Under the pieces are notes generated by a model. The model ran no database searches. It saw nothing but the letters and a program-made list of their open reading frames with translations, and was not told where the DNA came from. DNA of 41,039 nt from positions 1 through 41,039 of IMG/VR virus record IMGVR_UViG_3300036845_000395; one strand, written 5' to 3'. Source of the stretch: a virus. The position numbers and the translations under genes were made by a program. Shown here one piece after another: positions 4,584 to 32,334 of the stretch. The stretch's first letter is position 1. Each line of letters opens with the position of its first letter.

Positions 4584-4763
4584 ATGACGATCATCAGCCT
4601 TTTGGTTGTCGTCCTGATTTTCGCGATTGTCTGGTGGGTGCTTCAGCAACTCACGCTTCCGCCGCCGGTTCGCATGGTGGTCATCGTGGTCCTGGCGATC
4701 ATCGCTATCCTGTGGCTGCTATCCCTGGTTGGCGGCCCGAGCCTCGGGCTGCACGTCGGCTAG
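4584..4763 (+). CDS. Small two-helix membrane protein, Thivi_2564-like
   Basis: A 59-residue hydrophobic protein with two membrane segments: residues 2-18 (IISLLVVVLIFAIVWWV) and about 28-47 (MVVIVVLAIIAILWLLSL), joined by a TLPPPVR turn. Length and pattern match small Thivi_2564-type membrane proteins common in proteobacterial phages. It is the only rightward gene within the leftward 3.3-6.9 kb cluster. Its stop overlaps the end of the convergent neighbour by four bases. No strong ribosome site is visible. A holin-like role is possible but untested. Confidence 0.65.
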   Translation: MTIISLLVVVLIFAIVWWVLQQLTLPPPVRMVVIVVLAIIAILWLLSLVGGPSLGLHVG

Positions 4764-5146
4764 AGTTTAGCGTCTCGCCGGAAGAAGGCGCGCAGCGGCT
4801 CATCAAATTCAGGCGGCATACAGACGTTCGGCGTCGCGGCCGCGAACATCGGGGCGATGGCGCTTGGCCGGTAGCCCGCGAGGCCGCAGCCAACCGGCGT
4901 CAGGTCGAAGGTCAGTTCGGGATGGTCGGCGGCGTATTCGAGGAAGCGGTCAACCCCGACCCGGATCGAGGTGAGCGGCAACGTTTTCAGGTTTTCGTCC
5001 TTGGTCGGGATGGCATAGCTGAAGCCCTGGCGGCCTTCGCCCTGGCCGGTAACGGCGCCCCGGTTCTGCTTCGCCCACAGGGCCGCGCCCTTGCCGTGGC
5101 GGCCCGCGAGATTCGATCCGAACACGAAGACGGGGGGGATAGCCAT
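4760..5146 (-). CDS. A1S_2505-like phage non-structural protein
   Basis: A 128-residue protein matching the A1S_2505 family of small phage non-structural proteins. It opens with VFVFGSNLAGRHGKGAALWA and carries GQGEGRQGFSYAIPTKD, then LTPVGCGLAGY. The glycine-rich turns recall a nucleotide- or ADP-ribose-binding macro-like fold, but the biochemical role is not established. The start is coupled to the previous gene's stop (TGATG). It is the second gene back from the beta-helix gene in the leftward cluster. Confidence 0.8.
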   Translation of the reverse strand: MAIPPVFVFGSNLAGRHGKGAALWAKQNRGAVTGQGEGRQGFSYAIPTKDENLKTLPLTSIRVGVDRFLEYAADHPELTFDLTPVGCGLAGYRPSAIAPMFAAATPNVCMPPEFDEPLRAFFRRDAKL

Positions 5147-5655
5147 CAGTTGAGTGTCGGGGGCGGGAACAGGTTCGCCAGCGCCCCGCCCATGTTGATC
5201 GTGTCCTCGGAATCCGAGCGCACCAGACGGCGGACCCGGCGGCGTTTGTCGCGCTCGATCTCCTGTTGCCGCATCGTCACCTTGCCGCCGGGCTCAACAA
5301 TCATCGTGAACACGACTTCCGCCCGCTCGGGATCGCGGCTCACATCGCCGGGCCGCATCGCCATCATTTTCGCCCGCGCCGCTTCCGGGTCCTTCGCGTC
5401 GATGGGGATTCGCGTGATCCAGGCTTCGGCCCACACCGCGTAGCGCAGCGCCTTGACCTTGATCACATGGGCGCGCAGGGCTTCTAGCATCACCACGCGT
5501 TCAATCGGGTTCGACCACGCGCACAGCATGATATCGGCGTCGCCGTCTGGCCGCTCGATCAGCACGGTTTGCGCGAGGGCGCCGTCCGGGTGCGCCTTGA
5601 AATAACGCTCGTGCTGCGCGGTCAGGAAATCCGCCAATTCGTCCGCCGTTTTCAT
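5146..5655 (-). CDS. Hypothetical protein, leftward accessory cluster
   Basis: A 169-residue protein of unknown function. It has an N-terminal helix (MKTADELADFLTAQHERYF), a probable beta segment (VLIERPDGDADIMLCAWSN), and a highly charged C-terminal part with an RDKRRRVRRLVRSDSEDT stretch. The ATG at 5655 was chosen because it overlaps the upstream stop as ATGA. A longer frame upstream would run through the neighbouring gene. Confidence 0.65.
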   Translation of the reverse strand: MKTADELADFLTAQHERYFKAHPDGALAQTVLIERPDGDADIMLCAWSNPIERVVMLEALRAHVIKVKALRYAVWAEAWITRIPIDAKDPEAARAKMMAMRPGDVSRDPERAEVVFTMIVEPGGKVTMRQQEIERDKRRRVRRLVRSDSEDTINMGGALANLFPPPTLN

Positions 5656-5828
5656 GGCGTCATCTTCGCCTCGATCAGCCGAATCCGATCTTCTAGGGCC
5701 GTTTCGTGTCGCCGCCACCGGCGCCGCTCACCCGGTTCGTTCGCCCCGCCGATCAGCGCCCGCGTCGCCGAAAGCGCGGCGTACAGGTGGCGCAATTCTT
5801 CCGTGTCCTTCGGAATTTCGAGCGTCAT
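5652..5828 (-). CDS. Very small coiled-coil protein
   Basis: A 58-residue gene. It begins MTLEIPKDTEELRHLYAALS and ends RIRLIEAKMTP, with an Arg/Trp-rich middle (ERRRWRRHE). Both ends are coupled to neighbours by four-base overlaps (ATGA at 5652-5655 and at 5825-5828), which strongly supports translation. It is predicted mostly helical, with no family recognised. Confidence 0.7.
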   Translation of the reverse strand: MTLEIPKDTEELRHLYAALSATRALIGGANEPGERRRWRRHETALEDRIRLIEAKMTP

Positions 5829-6289
5829 GGCGCCGTCTCCTGATCCACCGCCGACCAGGGGTTACGGCTATCGGCGAACGGGAAAAACCGAATCCCAAGG
5901 CCGCCGTCCCGCCGCACCAGCCGGACAATCACCGCGCCAAGCTCAGGAATGCGGTAGGCCGTCAGATTCGCCGGAAATTTCGTGTCCTTGCGCACCGTTT
6001 CCACGATCCCCTCGGTGCGGCTCCAGGGCGCATGAATCCCAAACCGGAGCTGCACCATCCGATAGACCCGCCGCCCTTCCCAGGCGTGATCCGGGATCAC
6101 CAAATCCCGCGTTTCGCGCCACAGGGCTTCCGTCGCCTCTATCGCCTTCGCCGCCGCCTTCAGCCGTGCGGCGTACTTGTCTTCAAGCTGCACCAAAAAT
6201 CGGCGGCGCTCGTCATCCCGTGCGTCCTTCAGGGTCAAGAGCGCCGTTTTCGCTCGCTGCACCGCTTCCTCGGCTTCGTCTTCCGTCAT
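5825..6289 (-). CDS. Hypothetical protein with helical N-terminus
   Basis: A 154-residue protein. Residues 1-60 form a charged helix (EDEAEEAVQRAKTALLTLKD). The C-terminal half looks like a compact alpha/beta domain (VIVRLVRRDGGLGIRFFPF). I chose ATG 6289 because GGAAGG lies nine bases upstream. An alternative ATG at 6349 would overlap the previous gene by 32 bases. One copy of the CCGCCAGGCGG palindrome (6303-6313) lies in its leader. Function unknown. Confidence 0.6.
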   Translation of the reverse strand: MTEDEAEEAVQRAKTALLTLKDARDDERRRFLVQLEDKYAARLKAAAKAIEATEALWRETRDLVIPDHAWEGRRVYRMVQLRFGIHAPWSRTEGIVETVRKDTKFPANLTAYRIPELGAVIVRLVRRDGGLGIRFFPFADSRNPWSAVDQETAP

Positions 6290-7119: not shown

Positions 7120-8190
7120 ATGGCCGGAACAGTCTATGGGGTCAACGCTCCCGAGGCGGTCAAGCTGTGGCGTTCACAGTTGGCAAGAGAAGCACTCAAA
7201 GCGACATGGATACAGAAGTTCGTCGGCGATTCATCTGACGATATCGTTCAGGTGTTCGGTGAAACCTCAAAGTCTGCTGGCGACCGCGTGACCGCGACGT
7301 TGCGGATGCAGCTGACCGGCGATGGCGTCAGTGGCGACGCGACCCTGGAGGGCAACGAAGAGCCCCTGACCACCTATACCGACAACCTGTTGATCGATCA
7401 GCTACGGCACGGCGTGCGCAGTGGCGGCAAGATGACCGAACAGCGTATCCCCTGGTCGATCCGGGAAGAGGCCATGATGGGCCTCAAGGATTGGTGGGCG
7501 GGCCGGTTCGATACGGCGTTCTTCAACCAGCTTGGCGGCTACACGCCGATCACGGACCTTCGCTATACCGGCAACAATGCGGTGATCGGCCCGGACGCCA
7601 ACCACATCACCCGGCCGAACGCGAAGACGGCCGATGAACTCCTGGCCGCCGGGGATGAAATGTCCCTGGCTCTGATCGACAAGCTGGTTGAAAGCGCCAA
7701 GCTCGGGTCGGTCAATGGGACCGGGCCGGTGATCCGGCCGGTCAATGTAGACGGTGAAGACCGGTACGTCGTGGTCATGCATACAAAGCAAGTCACGCAG
7801 CTTCGGACCAATACTCAAGCCGGGCAATTTTTGGACATTCAGAAGGCGGCGATGACCGGCGATGGATCGGCCAAGAACCCGATCATGACCGGCGCGCTCG
7901 GCATGTATAACGGCGCGGTCCTGCATGAATCGACCCGCGTCACCAATGGCGTGAACAGCACGACCGGCGTCCCGGTCCTGACTGCCCGGCGGGCGATGCT
8001 TCTAGGCGCGCAAGCCGCCGCCATTGGATTTGGCGAAGGGCAGTCGTTCAAGTCGTTCGACTGGAATGAAGAACTCTTTGACTATGGCAATCAGCTTGGC
8101 GTCGAAGCCGGGGTGATCCATGGCTTGAAGAAGCTTCAATTCAACTCGCAGTCCTTCGGCGTCATCGTCGGCTCGACTTTCACCAATTAG
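7120..8190 (+). CDS. Major capsid protein, N4-gp56 family
   Basis: A 356-residue coat protein of the N4-gp56 major capsid family (HK97 fold), forming the icosahedral shell. Recognisable parts are the N-terminal AREALKATWIQKFVG, the RMQLTGDGVSGDATLEGNEE loop, FDTAFFNQLGGYT and the C-terminal GVEAGVIHGLKKLQF. The start is supported by GAGGG about seven bases upstream. It is separated from portal and scaffold by the leftward accessory cluster, which is unusual for this gene order. Confidence 0.93.
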   Translation: MAGTVYGVNAPEAVKLWRSQLAREALKATWIQKFVGDSSDDIVQVFGETSKSAGDRVTATLRMQLTGDGVSGDATLEGNEEPLTTYTDNLLIDQLRHGVRSGGKMTEQRIPWSIREEAMMGLKDWWAGRFDTAFFNQLGGYTPITDLRYTGNNAVIGPDANHITRPNAKTADELLAAGDEMSLALIDKLVESAKLGSVNGTGPVIRPVNVDGEDRYVVVMHTKQVTQLRTNTQAGQFLDIQKAAMTGDGSAKNPIMTGALGMYNGAVLHESTRVTNGVNSTTGVPVLTARRAMLLGAQAAAIGFGEGQSFKSFDWNEELFDYGNQLGVEAGVIHGLKKLQFNSQSFGVIVGSTFTN

Positions 8191-24528: not shown

Positions 24529-25542
24529 TCAACCTGACCCTAGCCGAACAAGTCGGGCTGCACCGGAAGAGGTTCTAGCAAGCGTTGCTGTAAGAGTACG
24601 GAACGCGTGTGCTGCTTCCAACGGGACAACACCGTTTCCGAGTAGATACAGCCGGTGAAGGCGCTGGGCTCGGGCGTGGCGGCTCCAACCGCGAGCCCGC
24701 TCCATCCCGGCGGCCAGTTCATCAAGCTTTCCACAAACAACGGGTTCAAGGTGAGGCCACGCGGCGAGGAGGTAACGCCATCGTTCGGTGTCTGCGGGGC
24801 CAGGAGGGAATGCAAAAGCTGGCCCTGGCCCTTCATCAGGAGTTCCGTGTTCCTCGCCCCTGAGCGGGTCCTGCGCCCGCCGGTCACGTCGGCCACGGTA
24901 GGCGTCGCCCATCGGCCCGCCGCCTCGCTCAAGGGCCGCGCGTTGCGGCCATGCGTCCCCGGCGAGGCGTAGACGCTGCGGTCGTCCCTGGCGGCTGGCG
25001 TCGGCCAGAGCGTCATGGATCGCGAGGATGAAAAGCCGCTCGCGCTCATGGGGGGCGCCAACCTCTGACGCCGTGAATAGTCCGCCCTCAACCTGATAAC
25101 CCAATCGGCGAAGGTCTCGATGAATACGGGCGGCCCCGCCTCGCGCGTGCAACATGCCGCCGACGTTCTCGATGAACACGGCCCATGGCCGGGACTGGAC
25201 GATGATCCGGCGGGTGGCTGGCCAGAGGTCGCGGTCATCAGCGGCGCCTCGGGCGGGTCCGGCTTCAGACCACGGCTGGCAAGGGATGCCGCCAAATAAG
25301 AGGTCCACGCATCCACGAAAGCGTCGGCCAGGGAAGGTTCGGGCGTCAGACCATACAGGCGCCGCAGCCAGATATGCCGCTTCAATCGCCTGAACCAGAG
25401 TCGCGCACGCGAAGGCTTCCCTCTCCACATAAGCGACCGGGCGAAGCGCCGGAACCGCGAGTTCAAGGGCAAGGTCCAAGGCCCCGGCGCCTGTGCAGAT
25501 GGAGAGGGCGCAGAGGTCATCAGCGGGGGAATGTAGACCCAC
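24529..25542 (-). CDS. DNA cytosine-C5 methyltransferase
   Basis: A 337-residue enzyme transferring a methyl group from S-adenosylmethionine to C5 of cytosine in DNA. Motif I is LSICTGAGALDLALE. Motif IV is GGIPCQPWSEAG, with catalytic Cys88. Motif VI is the IENVGGML segment, motif VIII is EVGAPHERERLFILA and motif X is YLLGNGVVPLEAAHAF. All key motifs are intact, so it should be active. No cognate nuclease is nearby, so it probably protects phage DNA. I chose the GTG at 25542 (AGGAGG eight bases upstream); longer frames run into the repeat array. Target specificity cannot be read from sequence. Confidence 0.88.
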   Translation of the reverse strand: MGLHSPADDLCALSICTGAGALDLALELAVPALRPVAYVEREAFACATLVQAIEAAYLAAAPVWSDARTFPGRRFRGCVDLLFGGIPCQPWSEAGPARGAADDRDLWPATRRIIVQSRPWAVFIENVGGMLHARGGAARIHRDLRRLGYQVEGGLFTASEVGAPHERERLFILAIHDALADASRQGRPQRLRLAGDAWPQRAALERGGGPMGDAYRGRRDRRAQDPLRGEEHGTPDEGPGPAFAFPPGPADTERWRYLLAAWPHLEPVVCGKLDELAAGMERARGWSRHARAQRLHRLYLLGNGVVPLEAAHAFRTLTATLARTSSGAARLVRLGSG

Positions 25543-26002
25543 ACTCGAATCCTCCTGAAGGCGATGACGATGGCGGGGACAGGGACGCGGACGGCGGCGT
25601 TGACGTAGGCGCCGACAGTGGCGCAGGCGTTGGCGTTGACGGCGGCGCAAGCGTTGACGGTGGCGGCGCCGTTGGCGCGGGCGTGGCCGGGAACGACGGC
25701 GAAGCCGGTGGCGCGGGCGTAGGCGCGGACGGTGACGGCGCCGGAGGCGCTGACGGAGACGGCGGCGTGGACGCGGACGATAGCGAAGGCGTCGGCGCTG
25801 GCGATGACGGAGCCGGAGACGGCGGCGACGGCGGGGGCGCTGGCGATAAGGTTGACGGGGACGCTGGCGAGGATGTGGGCGCAGACGTTGGCGTTGGCGC
25901 CGGGGACGGCGAAGACGGAGGCGGTGGCGAAGGCGCCGACGTTGCCGGTGACGTGGACGACGCCGGGGACGAAGACGTTGACGGGGGCGAAGGCGCAGAC
26001 AT
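25520..26002 (-). CDS. Low-complexity Ser/Pro/Ala/Thr reading frame over array 1
   Basis: A 160-residue open frame beginning MSAPSPPSTSSSPASS, composed almost only of Ser, Pro, Ala and Thr with Pro or Ser at nearly every second position. It starts two bases after the upstream gene's stop and ends 23 bases inside the methyltransferase, so it sits like an operon gene. Codons alternate YCN and NCG; in NCG the wobble base is almost always G while in YCN it is free. Pure protein selection would not give that. It may be translated as a disordered protein, or be a by-product of the DNA array. Confidence 0.4.
   Translation of the reverse strand: MSAPSPPSTSSSPASSTSPATSAPSPPPPSSPSPAPTPTSAPTSSPASPSTLSPAPPPSPPSPAPSSPAPTPSLSSASTPPSPSAPPAPSPSAPTPAPPASPSFPATPAPTAPPPSTLAPPSTPTPAPLSAPTSTPPSASLSPPSSSPSGGFECGSTFPR
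25561..25998. repeat. Hexamer array 1, GRCGNN consensus, 73 units
   Basis: Seventy-three consecutive six-base units lie without a single phase break. Read as RCGNNG from 25561, 58 of 73 match exactly; most others change only the first base to C. The two N positions are highly variable. The core is therefore GGCG or GACG (CGCC or CGTC on the other strand) spaced by two free bases. It lies between the RAMP-like gene and the methyltransferase start. Confidence 0.9.
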
Positions 26003-26006
26003 TCGA

Positions 26007-26678
26007 TTACTCGGCGGCGAGGTTCAAAGCCTGATGCTGGTCAAGCTCTTTCGCTTCCCAACCAGCCAGGGCGAAGCGGCCCTTGCCCATCTTGCGCGAG
26101 GCGCCGATGCCGACGAACTGGCCGCCCCACATGATCAGGTTGCGCAGAGTCGGCGGATCGACGGTCTGTTCGTCAATCGTCAGTTCGCCATGGGCGGTGA
26201 AGCCTTCGATATAGCCGTTCTCGCGCAGGCCGCGTTGATTGGACGCTTTCGCGCCGGTCCCGAGCGTGACGGTCGCGAACCGGGTCCACACGCCGTCCGG
26301 CGCGAACTTGCCGGTGTAGAACGGCGTGGCCGCGATTTTTGACCTGACCTGTTCTGGTGGGCAGGCCCGGTGCGCCGCGCGCGCCTCGCTGTTGGCGGCG
26401 ACAAGGAAGGACAGAATGTTGTCTGGTGGGATGATGATTTCGTTATCCTCGGCGACATGGAACGGGCGCTTCGACAAGGTTTCTAGCTTGTCGTAATCGA
26501 GCAAGGTCATGTCGTGCGCGCGCAGATACTCTTCTAGCGACTTGCGCCGATTGGCGTCGCTCTTGGCCCGGTTGAGGCCAGATTTCTTGGTGATTTCGAT
26601 GACCTGATACATTTCGGTCCAATAAGGATGCGCGACGAATGGCGTCGTGAACCTTAGGGCGGTTTTGATGGTCAGCAT
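26007..26678 (-). CDS. Unknown protein with RAMP-like glycine loop, flanked by arrays
   Basis: A 223-residue protein. The N-terminus is MLTIKTALRFTTPFVAHPYW. A middle segment, EDNEIIIPPDNILSFLVAAN, has the IPxxxLxxxLxxAA look of phage proteins whose C-terminal loop resembles Cas7-like RAMP domains. The C-terminal FVGIGASRKMGKGRFALAGW is the GIGxxRxxGxGRF loop. I do not claim a CRISPR role; no array or cas gene is present. AGGAGA precedes the ATG at 26678. A frame starting at 26888 would add 70 Pro/Ser-rich residues from array 2. Both sides are hexamer arrays. Confidence 0.55.
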   Translation of the reverse strand: MLTIKTALRFTTPFVAHPYWTEMYQVIEITKKSGLNRAKSDANRRKSLEEYLRAHDMTLLDYDKLETLSKRPFHVAEDNEIIIPPDNILSFLVAANSEARAAHRACPPEQVRSKIAATPFYTGKFAPDGVWTRFATVTLGTGAKASNQRGLRENGYIEGFTAHGELTIDEQTVDPPTLRNLIMWGGQFVGIGASRKMGKGRFALAGWEAKELDQHQALNLAAE

Positions 26679-26700
26679 GTCTCTCTCCTGTTGAGACGGT

Positions 26701-27172
26701 GGCGTTGACGACGGCGCTGACGATGGCGACAGCGGCGGCGGGGACAAGGACGACGGCGTTGGCGAGGACGACGGCGAGGGCGCCGTCGATGGCGTTGCGT
26801 CGGCGTAGACGTTGCTTAGGCGTTGGCGACGCAGAGGCGGGGACGGAGGCGACGGCGTTGGCGCGGGCGTAGCCGCTGGCGTGGCCATTGCATTGGCGTA
26901 GGCGTTGCCGGAGCCGGAGCCGGTGGCGACGCGGTGACGACGGCGATGGCGGGGACGAAGGCGCGGGCAGCGCCGGGGGCGTTGACGGCGGCGCCGACGA
27001 CGGCGGGGACGGCGACAGGGACGAAGACGAAGGCGCTGACGAAGGCGTGGCCAGGGCCGTAGCCGTGGGCGTAGACGCTGACGGGGACGCGGCCGAAGGC
27101 GTTGGCGTCGGCTTAGGCGGCAACGTCGGCGGGGGCGACGGCGAGGGCGTTGACGTTGACGCAGGCGTAGAC
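26701..27172. repeat. Hexamer array 2, GRCGNN consensus, about 78 units, with phase breaks
   Basis: This has the same unit as array 1 (GGCG or GACG plus two free bases), but the register shifts by one base about five times between 26796 and 26937; 26937-27172 is uninterrupted. On the minus strand a frame starting at 27176 (MSTPASTSTPSPSPPPT), coupled by TGATG to the upstream stop, reads the first third as a Ser/Pro/Thr/Ala polymer like that of array 1, then leaves register. It is probably a decayed or non-coding relative of array 1. Confidence 0.85.
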
Positions 27173-27173
27173 A

Positions 27174-27419
27174 TCAGGGCTGACCACCGGCCTTGCGCCG
27201 GGCTTCCACGATGGCGGCGCAGCGGTAGAGCTTTTGCGCGATGTAGCGGGCCTGAGCCGGTGACAGACCGGCCGGATAAGACGGCCCTTCGGTTTTGTTG
27301 AGGCTGATCCACTGACCCCGCGCGACCACCGTCACGCGCTGCGTCAGGTCGCTGGCCGTCGCCGACAGCTTGGCGCAGTCGTTCACGCCGTGAACCTCAT
27401 CACACACGTCCGGGATCAT
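27174..27419 (-). CDS. Small hypothetical protein before array 2
   Basis: An 81-residue protein. The ATG overlaps the previous stop (ATGA) and AAGGA is upstream. It has a possible helical N-terminus (VNDCAKLSATASDLTQRVTV) and a C-terminal helix (SPAQARYIAQKLYRCAAIVE, then ARRKAGG). No family is recognised. It lies in the leftward operon upstream of array 2. Confidence 0.6.
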   Translation of the reverse strand: MIPDVCDEVHGVNDCAKLSATASDLTQRVTVVARGQWISLNKTEGPSYPAGLSPAQARYIAQKLYRCAAIVEARRKAGGQP

Positions 27420-28325: not shown

Positions 28326-28460
28326 ATGCGTACAGGGCGGCCGACGTGGAGTCTGATCTATGCCCGGCGCCGCTGGGGGCCTGATTGGGCGGTGGCTATC
28401 GCCGCCTGTATCGGCGGCTTCAGCCTCGGGCTGGTCCTGGCCAACCTGTTGCACGCATGA
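28326..28460 (+). CDS. Very small single-helix membrane protein
   Basis: A 44-residue gene. It has an Arg-rich N-terminus (MRTGRPTWSLIYARRRWGPD) and one membrane segment (WAVAIAACIGGFSLGLVLAN). Its stop overlaps the ATG of the resolvase gene (ATGA), and it follows the HTH gene by five bases, so it is well placed in the operon. Function unknown. Confidence 0.55.
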   Translation: MRTGRPTWSLIYARRRWGPDWAVAIAACIGGFSLGLVLANLLHA

Positions 28461-28978
28461 CCGGCAAGCTGATCCTCGGGATAGACCCTGGCCTCGATGG
28501 CGCTCTCGCCCTGGTCGATCTGGATACCGGCGCCCTGGTCGATGTGTTCGACGTTCCGACCCTGAAGCTGAAGAATGGCCGGACCCTGAACGAATACCAG
28601 CTTGCCGCCCTGGTCGATGATTGGTCGCGCAAGGTTGCTGACGCTTGGATTGAAAAGGCGTGGCCACGCCCCGGCGAGGGCGGCGTTCAAGGCTTCGCCT
28701 TCGGCAAGAACTACGGGCAGTTGATGGGGACCGTGACCGCGAACATGGTCCCGCTTCATGAGGTCGGCCCGGCGCTGTGGAAGCGCACGATGGGGGTCAC
28801 GTCGGACAAGGATGAAGCCCGCGCCGCCGCCTCGAAAGCATGGCCACGTGAAGCGCACCGCTGGCCGCTGAAGAAGCATCACGGCCGGGCGGAAGCCGCC
28901 CTGATCGCCGCCTATGGGCGCCGCCGCTTCCTGACGACGTACCTAGAGGGCGACCTGATCGAGGTGGCCCATGGCTGA
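28457..28978 (+). CDS. RuvC-like Holliday junction resolvase
   Basis: A 173-residue endonuclease of the RuvC/RNase H fold, expected to cut branched DNA made during replication and recombination before packaging. The first acidic site is Asp10 in LILGIDPGLDGALALV; AWIEKAWP carries the second acidic residue, and HHGRAEAALIAAYGRR is the C-terminal metal-site helix (Glu where Asp is usual). It is coupled by ATGA to the small membrane gene. RuvC-like proteins are common in alphaproteobacterial phage early operons. Confidence 0.82.
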   Translation: MTGKLILGIDPGLDGALALVDLDTGALVDVFDVPTLKLKNGRTLNEYQLAALVDDWSRKVADAWIEKAWPRPGEGGVQGFAFGKNYGQLMGTVTANMVPLHEVGPALWKRTMGVTSDKDEARAAASKAWPREAHRWPLKKHHGRAEAALIAAYGRRRFLTTYLEGDLIEVAHG

Positions 28979-30195: not shown

Positions 30196-32334
30196 TTGCG
30201 GATGATTGGACCGTTCAACGCCGAATGGGCGACCGCCCCGCAATGGGCGCTGATGTACCGCGAGCGGGGCCTTCAGGTGGTCCCGGCGCATCGGCCCGGC
30301 GAGGGCGCGCAATGGAAGCGGCCGTTCGGCGACTGGCTGGAATTTCGTGAGAACCTGACAAGCGACGCCGTGTTCAGCCGGTGGTTCCACCCGGAGACCG
30401 GGGAACACCGCGCCCGGCGCAACATGGGCCTGATCCTCGGGCGCCCCTCGGGCGGCCTGTTCGCCATCGACCTTGACCGCAAGGAAGGGTCCGGCGCCTT
30501 CGATTGGTGGGCGCGGATCGTGAACGTGCACTTCGGCGGCGTCGAACCGCTGACCTGGGCGCAGACGACCGGCGGCGGCGGGCGGCAAGTGTTCTTCAAG
30601 GCGCCGCCACACTGGACGCCCCCGACCTTCAAGACCGGCTTGTGCGTCGATCTGCGCGGCCAGGGCGGATTCGTGATCTGCCCGCCGAGCCTGCATCAGT
30701 CGCAACGCATCTACGATTGGGAGGATGAGCGCGGGCCATGGCAGGCGCCGCTCGCGGACGCCGATGAAGCCTTGATCGAAGAGATCGAGGAACTGCGCGA
30801 GGATTACGGCGGTGCGCCAGGCGGGCAGTCACAGGCCGAACACACGCCGTCACCCGGCCAGAGCAAGAACGACTGGGGCCGCGACATCGACGGGCGCGAG
30901 GCGAAGATCAGGGACGCGGTGTGGGCGGCGGTGGTGGATATGTATCGGGAATGCCCGATCCCGCTCGCCCAGAGCTTGCAGGACGCCGAAATCGAGCGGC
31001 TGTGGACGCAGTTCCAGTTGACCACGAAAAGCCGTCTGACGGGCGATCCTGGCGAGAGCAACGGCGAGCTGTTGGAACGCGAAGGCCGGGGGCTTTCAGA
31101 GTTCCGGCGCAAGTGGGCGTACGCCATGCGGCAATGGGATTCGAAGGTCGCGGAGGCGGCCAAGGTCCCAAAGCCTGAAAGCCAGGACGGCGGCCCGGTG
31201 CGCGCCGGGCAGGTATCCGACGCGAGCGGACAACTCGCCGCCCCGGATTCGACTCAAGAACAGGCCCGCGACGCAGACCCGATCTGCGCAGGCGACCTTC
31301 ATGGCCAACCGCCCGAGCGCCTGTGGCTGGTCACGGATTGGATTGCGCAGAACGAGGTCAACAGCCTGTACGGCATGGGCGGGACCGGGAAGTCGCTCCT
31401 GGCGCAGCAACTCGCCTACAGCGCGGCGACCGGGGAACCCTGGCTCGGGCTAGAGGTCAAGCCGTGCGAGACGGTTCTAGCGGTGCTGTGCGAGGACAAG
31501 CTGGACGAACTGCACAGGCGACATGAGGCGATCCGACTCGCGAGGGGCCATGCTATCGGCAACCCCTACGGCGGTGTGTACCTGTGGCCGCGCTACGGCT
31601 TCAACAACACCCTCCTGACCTATGAACGCGACGCGCCGATCTACGGCCCATTCCACGACCGACTCAAACAGCAACTGCAAAGGCTGAACCCCGGCCTGCT
31701 GATCCTCGATACGATCCGCGACGTGTTCGGGGGAGACGAGCGCGACCCGCAACAGGCGAACGCCTTCCTGAAGACGGTGCTCGGCGGCCTGATCCTGGCG
31801 CAGAAAGAGCGTGGCCATAGCCTCACAGTGATGCTGGTCGGCCATCCCAGCGTGCTCGGCGCCAAAGAGGGAACCGGGCTGGCGGGCTCCCTGGCATGGG
31901 AGAACGGGGTCAGGTGCAGACTTTACCTGAGCAAGCCTGAAGAGGGCTCCGGCGACGAACGAACCCTAGCCAAGGGCAAGGCGAACTACAGCGCCAGCGG
32001 CGCCGCAACCGGCGTCGCCCTCCTGTGGCAAGACGGCGTGTTCACGCCGACCAGCGGCCAGGATGTGAAAGCCGCCGTGAGGGCGGGCGGCCTCGCCCGG
32101 CTGGTCAGGGAGAAGGTCGAGTTCGCATGGTCAATCAACCGGCCATACACGGCGCGCGCGGACCATGACCGCCACCTTTACAAGCTCCTGCCCGAGCAAC
32201 TGAAAGACGGAACCGGGTGTAGTCAAGCAACCGCCTTACGCGCCGTCAGAGAAGCCATAGACGACGGCCTGATCATGCTTTCGAAGAACAGTAACAAGCG
32301 CGGCTGGAAACCAGCCGGGGCGGCGGACGAATGA
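30196..32334 (+). CDS. Primase-helicase (prim-pol plus RepA-like ATPase)
   Basis: A 712-residue replication protein. Residues 1-180 are a bifunctional primase-polymerase (AEP-type) domain with the acidic pair Asp92-x-Asp94 in LFAIDLDRKEG and TTGGGGRQVFFK. Residues about 365-620 are a RepA/AAA_25-type ATPase: Walker A GMGGTGKS (393-400), EDKLDELHRRHEAI, and LLILDTIRDVFGG as Walker B. The C-terminal 100 residues hold a winged-helix-like segment. The TTG at 30196 has GAGG at proper distance; ATG 30202 is the alternative. A terminator just upstream and an iteron region downstream fit a replication initiator. Confidence 0.85.
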   Translation: MRMIGPFNAEWATAPQWALMYRERGLQVVPAHRPGEGAQWKRPFGDWLEFRENLTSDAVFSRWFHPETGEHRARRNMGLILGRPSGGLFAIDLDRKEGSGAFDWWARIVNVHFGGVEPLTWAQTTGGGGRQVFFKAPPHWTPPTFKTGLCVDLRGQGGFVICPPSLHQSQRIYDWEDERGPWQAPLADADEALIEEIEELREDYGGAPGGQSQAEHTPSPGQSKNDWGRDIDGREAKIRDAVWAAVVDMYRECPIPLAQSLQDAEIERLWTQFQLTTKSRLTGDPGESNGELLEREGRGLSEFRRKWAYAMRQWDSKVAEAAKVPKPESQDGGPVRAGQVSDASGQLAAPDSTQEQARDADPICAGDLHGQPPERLWLVTDWIAQNEVNSLYGMGGTGKSLLAQQLAYSAATGEPWLGLEVKPCETVLAVLCEDKLDELHRRHEAIRLARGHAIGNPYGGVYLWPRYGFNNTLLTYERDAPIYGPFHDRLKQQLQRLNPGLLILDTIRDVFGGDERDPQQANAFLKTVLGGLILAQKERGHSLTVMLVGHPSVLGAKEGTGLAGSLAWENGVRCRLYLSKPEEGSGDERTLAKGKANYSASGAATGVALLWQDGVFTPTSGQDVKAAVRAGGLARLVREKVEFAWSINRPYTARADHDRHLYKLLPEQLKDGTGCSQATALRAVREAIDDGLIMLSKNSNKRGWKPAGAADE

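Follow-up and report, generated by a model that had tools for sequence, protein, structure and literature searches.

Two hexanucleotide repeat arrays around a Cas7-fold gene of a virus: a probable VIPR-type guide system in six-base form

Two long arrays of a degenerate six-base repeat flank a single gene in the IMG/VR virus record IMGVR_UViG_3300036845_000395, which we analysed over a stretch of 41,039 nucleotides (the window). A preliminary description of this DNA, made from the letters alone, had left the gene unrecognised and stated that no phage element of this form had been described. The latter was nearly right: the VIPR system (Viral Interference Programmable Repeat) was reported in April 2026, but with five-base repeats (PMC13142463). 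We find that the gene is a homologue of vipr. The best explanation overall, in which we have good confidence on the strength of sequence analysis, is a single-protein system of the VIPR type with six-base repeats, whose two variable bases (NN) would serve as guides against genes of competing phages. In the preprint, VIPR of Escherichia phage SUSP1, a weapon by which phages attack each other, consists of a phage RAMP protein and guide RNAs of tandem five-base YNNGG (GGY/NN) units, the NN bases of which read DNA with a one-base skip (PMC13142463). The corresponding components in the window are as follows.

25560..25997, minus strand: array 1, 73 hexamer units, GRCG-NN on the plus strand and CGYC-NN on the transcribed minus strand
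26007..26678, minus strand: vipr homologue, a 223-residue RAMP/Cas7-fold protein with the C-terminal glycine loop GIGASRKMGKGRF, assigned by AlphaFold2, Foldseek, PHROG 4652 and profile-profile comparison
26695..27169, minus strand: array 2, with about 80 hexamer units and five shifts of register by one base

Results

Searched singly, the gene between the arrays gave no database match above the cut-off. AlphaFold2 applied to the alignment of its homologues yielded a model with a predicted local distance difference test score of 89.5, and the 50 listed Foldseek matches to this model in the PDB are all RAMPs of the Cas7 family (Cas7-11, type VII Cas7, Csm and Cmr; best E-value 7e-8). Weak Pfam matches to Cas6 and RAMPs agree with the fold. 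Homology to Vipr itself is seen in two ways: 14 of 20 homologues match PHROG 4652, at best with 2.7e-6, as does SUSP1 Vipr with 1.4e-96, and profile-profile comparison with five phage Viprs using hhalign gave an E-value of 3.6e-7. A profile of the relatives led to 20 further viral contigs and one Actinomycetes metagenome-assembled genome, and found no member of this Vipr clade in cultured phages. In L139 / L161 vipr is apparently frameshifted after about residue 130, with an early stop; decay or an assembly error could account for this.

Both arrays are real hexamer arrays. Array 1 spans 438 bp, exactly 73 units as first described, with an unbroken register and a perfect GRCG core in 58 units. 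Array 2 also has 58 perfect cores but comprises 80 units rather than the roughly 78 counted before. Over the 153 units of both arrays the core positions hold G (93%), G or A (55% and 34%), C (98%) and G (93%), and positions 5 and 6 are near uniform at 1.93–1.99 bits. The initial view of a fixed GRCG core followed by two near-random bases thus stands except for the second core base, which is better written N: it is strongly biased to G and then A, and C and T are seen in relatives. The two arrays reach chain scores of 106.5 and 77, whereas none of 200 triplet shuffles of the region scored above 8. The longest exact repeat within either array is only 14 bp, so the arrays do not consist of a few units copied over and over. 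A search with the reversed repeat pattern returned no match. Bare GRCGNN matches elsewhere in IMG/VR were mostly low-entropy repeats, mainly of the glycine/alanine coding type, and were set aside as unrelated.

The arrays belong with vipr, as had been suspected for the then unrecognised gene. We compared 22 vipr loci including that of the window, and 21 of them carry hexamer arrays, GRCGNN at 20 and CGRC-NN at one (L170). Relatives without the gene lack the arrays. No gene other than vipr is common to all loci; the next gene cluster links six of the 22, and others link three or fewer. In 19 contigs we count 43 hexamer arrays against none in the reversed sequence, and array length ranges from 10 to 103 units. 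L170 encodes the most divergent homologue, on a 192-kb contig; its CGRC-NN array lies on the vipr strand at about 7440–7700, with a purine in place of the pyrimidine at the variable position of the core. Some arrays lie far from vipr, namely in the G002 contig (L172–L175; 49503–49892 and 69853–70152), the G007 contig (7552–7695, 38237–38452 and 39122–39217) and the G013 contig (53041–53124), and one such array sits in an operon of opposite direction. In L148, the Actinomycetes genome, conservation of the core is near-perfect, holding in 152 of 153 units (4640–4944 and 5652–6285); 21 seven-base units, spaced 2–11 units apart, possibly mark guide boundaries there.

As the two arrays of the window sit between minus-strand genes, CGYC-NN is the form on their transcribed strand. 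In 41 of 46 arrays, among them one in an operon running opposite to vipr, the C-rich strand coincides with the coding strand of the neighbouring genes, so that CGYC-NN is most likely the transcribed unit in general. Perfect units on this strand are free of stop codons in all frames, a property that may permit arrays within operons. Operons are indeed where the arrays lie, often directly before the vipr start. The flanks of 41 arrays hold gene ends and ribosome-binding sites only, with neither a conserved 3' tail nor a promoter.

Core and NN evolve very differently. G014 and G017 are close phages, 3.5% apart outside the arrays. Substitutions between their aligned units amount to 1.7, 14.6, 1.1, 5.2, 39.5 and 28.9% at positions 1–6, and third codon positions of vipr differ by 9.8%. 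NN therefore change 3–4 times faster than third codon positions, a figure to which misaligned or replaced blocks contribute, these being themselves a form of turnover.

The order of successive NN pairs also carries information. We compared it with codon-pair tables built from 1,770 phage open reading frames (ORFs), an approach that requires no knowledge of any target. A signal emerged solely when the wobble base was skipped (z 2.5 to 3.1, p about 0.003; p 0.001 without the window) and in the orientation in which the transcribed RNA is antisense to a target mRNA. With any other frame, with skips of 0 or 2 or with the orientation reversed, |z| did not exceed about 1. The two arrays of the window alone are too short to display the signal. 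When guides were matched to targets, skip rules of 0, 2, 3, 4 and 5 yielded nothing beyond shuffles, and skip-0 matches at 19 of 20 bases fell within the shuffle range.

Candidate targets of individual guides were found with the one-base skip, the clearest for one segment of array 1.

25674..25769, minus strand: candidate guide segment of array 1, units 19–34 (counted from 0), matching HTH_17 genes with a one-base skip

Read in this way, the NN pairs of the segment spell R-C/W-G-T-N/K-V-R-Y-R-V-A-D/E-L-D/E-A-C/W, which contains VRYRVADLDAW, a motif that other phages carry in excisionase-like HTH_17 genes. Against such a gene of the relative G026, 27 of 32 bases match in frame with the wobble base skipped, a result equalled by 1 of 150 shuffles. 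A 10-unit pattern had a single match among 2.9 million viral contigs, in frame within an HTH_17 gene (Pfam) of L336, and this match extends to 22 of 22 bases (units 24–34), again skipping the wobble base. The guide ranked first among 92 guide readings against four HTH_17 genes with the motif, two of which had not been chosen by guide matching. Its joint score on the four genes (75/96) was reached by none of 400 shuffles of all arrays (maximum 64), and its score on the two independently chosen genes alone by one of 400. A second case is only suggestive because about 10% of shuffled guide sets score as high: at an end of one G007 array, nine units agree in frame with 18 of 18 bases of a DndB-family gene, and this guide is matched by two viral contigs only, with homologues that differ at the skipped bases. 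Matches to RVAELDA in L050 and L092 could not be extended and were treated as chance.

The arrays and vipr form a clean insertion of 1.6 kb between two genes that lie outside the system.

25543..27173, strand not assigned: cassette of array 1, vipr and array 2, missing from relatives
24529..25542, minus strand: C5 cytosine methyltransferase (PF00145, E-value 1.7e-29), present without arrays in G023–G026 and G028
27174..27419, minus strand: 81-residue ORF, with homologues 52–58% identical in the cassette-free G023, G025 and G026

Close relatives of the window phage (terminase 72–93% identical) lack both vipr and arrays. Only 53 bp separate the corresponding flanking genes in G023, which delimits the cassette precisely as array-gene-array. 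The cytosine methyltransferase that had been noted at the array end is confirmed, as a C5-type enzyme whose true ORF is 24529–25542. An integrase gene in the window indicates that the phage is probably temperate. Beyond the cassette, the plus strand encodes a RuvC-like resolvase (28460–28978) and a Prim-Pol/AAA primase-helicase (30196–32334).

Discussion

The following mechanism would agree with these observations. Judging from their orientation, the arrays would be transcribed with their operon as (CGYC-NN)n RNA. Fold and homology suggest that the RAMP/Vipr protein binds this RNA with one subunit per six-base unit and grips the CGYC core. The two free bases of each unit would then face outward, and each NN pair in turn would read the next NNx triplet of a target, with one target base skipped per unit, usually the wobble base of a codon; the skip is the step that sequence statistics support. 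Runs of roughly 9–17 units would constitute one guide, so that an array could hold several. Targets would be genes of competing phages, as for the guide of array 1 that appears to read the excisionase/AlpA-like HTH_17 motif, and its binding would, by analogy with VIPR, repress this gene. Both candidate targets, like the statistics over all arrays, place the transcribed guide antisense to the mRNA of its target, so that binding of RNA as well as DNA is possible.

Several observations weigh against this interpretation. One vipr locus, L158, has no array, and a conserved 3' tail was not seen in the array flanks. The base composition of NN does not correlate with that of codon positions 1–2 of phage genes and is more A+T-rich. 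With all guides run against the whole local DNA set, top target scores exceed those of shuffles only modestly. The joint test on the four HTH_17 genes is partly post hoc and not fully independent, because it was the first match that drew attention to the family. Scans of the decoded pseudo-peptides by hidden Markov models, profiles and tblastn returned nothing useful, being uninformative because about 15 residues are too short. SLIDEATG, decoded from units beside the HTH_17 guide, seemed meaningful, yet IMG/VR contains no exact match to it.

The arrays might instead be a plain binding scaffold for the RAMP protein, such as an RNA sponge, an autoregulatory leader or a filament platform, with NN as neutral spacers and no targeting. 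One Cas7 subunit covers six bases of RNA in Class 1 effectors, which is the period of the arrays, and their operonic position close to the vipr start as well as the drift of NN composition toward A+T would suit a scaffold. However, neutral spacers should not outpace the synonymous rate, and NN diverge by 29–40% where third codon positions diverge by 10%. Moreover, the order of NN fits codon pairs under a single reading rule, and a conserved motif of phage genes can be read from part of array 1. We consider a scaffold without guides improbable. From the preliminary description the tie between arrays and gene is retained; the reading as a plain binding array with neutral spacers is weakened by the NN rate and the codon-pair information.

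Two further proposals, a protein-coding repeat and a methylation-dense decoy, can be rejected. A minus-strand repeat encoding low-complexity peptides rich in Pro, Ser, Thr and Ala would explain why both arrays start in frame right after ATG-TCT beside the preceding stop codon and why array 1 forms an ORF of 160 residues. Yet an open frame is meaningless on a strand whose repeat unit leaves no room for stops in any frame, and the base under the strongest conservation (position 3) would be the wobble base. In array 2 and in relatives (21 insertions in L148, for example) the frame is interrupted by indels of one base, and no peptide feature is conserved, which makes a coding repeat very unlikely. 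Stop-free frames and frame-breaking insertions also bear out the earlier view that the constraint acts on the nucleic acid. The idea that the arrays are a CpG-dense decoy or target of the adjacent methyltransferase draws on a core CpG every six bases and on the C5 type of the neighbour. It retains next to no probability: relatives keep the methyltransferase beside the 81-residue ORF without arrays or the RAMP gene, and vipr alone is common to the loci. A different question is whether six-base repeats are already among the consensus variants of VIPR in fig. S17 of the preprint, which describes variation in consensus and in array architecture, with overlapping 'staggered' arrays among the forms listed (PMC13142463). 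We regard this as rather unlikely, since its main text defines vrRNAs as 9–16 tandem pentanucleotides with a 3' tail and does not mention six-base units there. In addition, the SUSP1 locus, which we located, has a repeat period of 5 by the same test that gives 6 for the present arrays, and period 5 is also best in four of five further Viprs of cultured phages, that of Trine being ambiguous. As these include GC-rich Mycobacterium and Gordonia phages, the six-base period goes with the present Vipr clade and not with GC content. Vipr homologues of the cultured phages Medea1, LittleE, phiHSIC and Pipp (L337, L338, L340 and L341) are annotated merely as hypothetical and have period-5 arrays nearby.

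Comparison with known systems

The locus is best called a VIPR-type guide system in six-base form, a verdict that protein homology and architecture support, although the locus lacks two defining features of published VIPR, the five-base GGY unit and the tailed RNA of 9–16 units. Like VIPR, it is a minimal phage-encoded locus with a sequence-homologous RAMP of the single-RRM type: the protein has an RRM core and the glycine-rich loop GIGASRKMGKGRF, is encoded alone in phages or prophages, and is linked to known Viprs through PHROG 4652 and hhalign. Tandem repeats adjoin vipr, in the window on both sides, in which a conserved core alternates with hypervariable NN. Codon-pair statistics and the HTH_17 matches are consistent with recognition by NN under a wobble-skipping one-base rule, and the candidate target is a control gene of temperate phages.

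The differences are equally clear. In place of the pentanucleotide with its GGY core, for which the preprint also allows a 'related consensus', the present unit has six bases, GNCG-NN or CGYC-NN as transcribed. Runs comprise 10–103 units rather than 9–16 and lack the conserved structured 3' tail, the 22 loci share no accessory (vap) gene, the protein is about 28 residues longer, and some genomes have arrays scattered far from vipr. Relative to the main text of the preprint, the six-base unit, CGYC/NN on the transcribed strand, the length range and the absence of a conserved tail are new.

Class 1 CRISPR-Cas Cas7 proteins (Csm3, Cmr, Cas7-11 and type VII) share the fold and the six-nucleotide repeat of the protein on RNA. 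However, the present loci have hexamer arrays only, with no CRISPR array of repeats and unique contiguous spacers and no other cas gene, and target information apparently resides at two of six positions rather than five of six. RNA anti-CRISPRs (Racrs) are likewise phage-encoded RNA repeats linked to Cas-type proteins, but they are solitary mimics of CRISPR repeats (PMC10651486), whereas the arrays here are long and come with their own RAMP gene.

At slightly less than even chance, we suggest that these loci represent a distinct hexanucleotide class of VIPR, with one protein, operon-embedded CGYC/NN arrays that reach about 100 units and in which several guides overlap, neither tail nor accessory gene, and one codon read per repeat antisense to target mRNAs. 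Arrays of 70–100 units would allow one phage to deploy several guides at once, and decoded NN strings would reveal which genes phages target in uncultured communities. VIPR with its five-base repeat has been proposed as an ancestor of CRISPR. With the footprint of every Cas7 backbone subunit, a six-base sister family could plausibly be the missing intermediate between the two, which would make this origin of CRISPR testable by structure.
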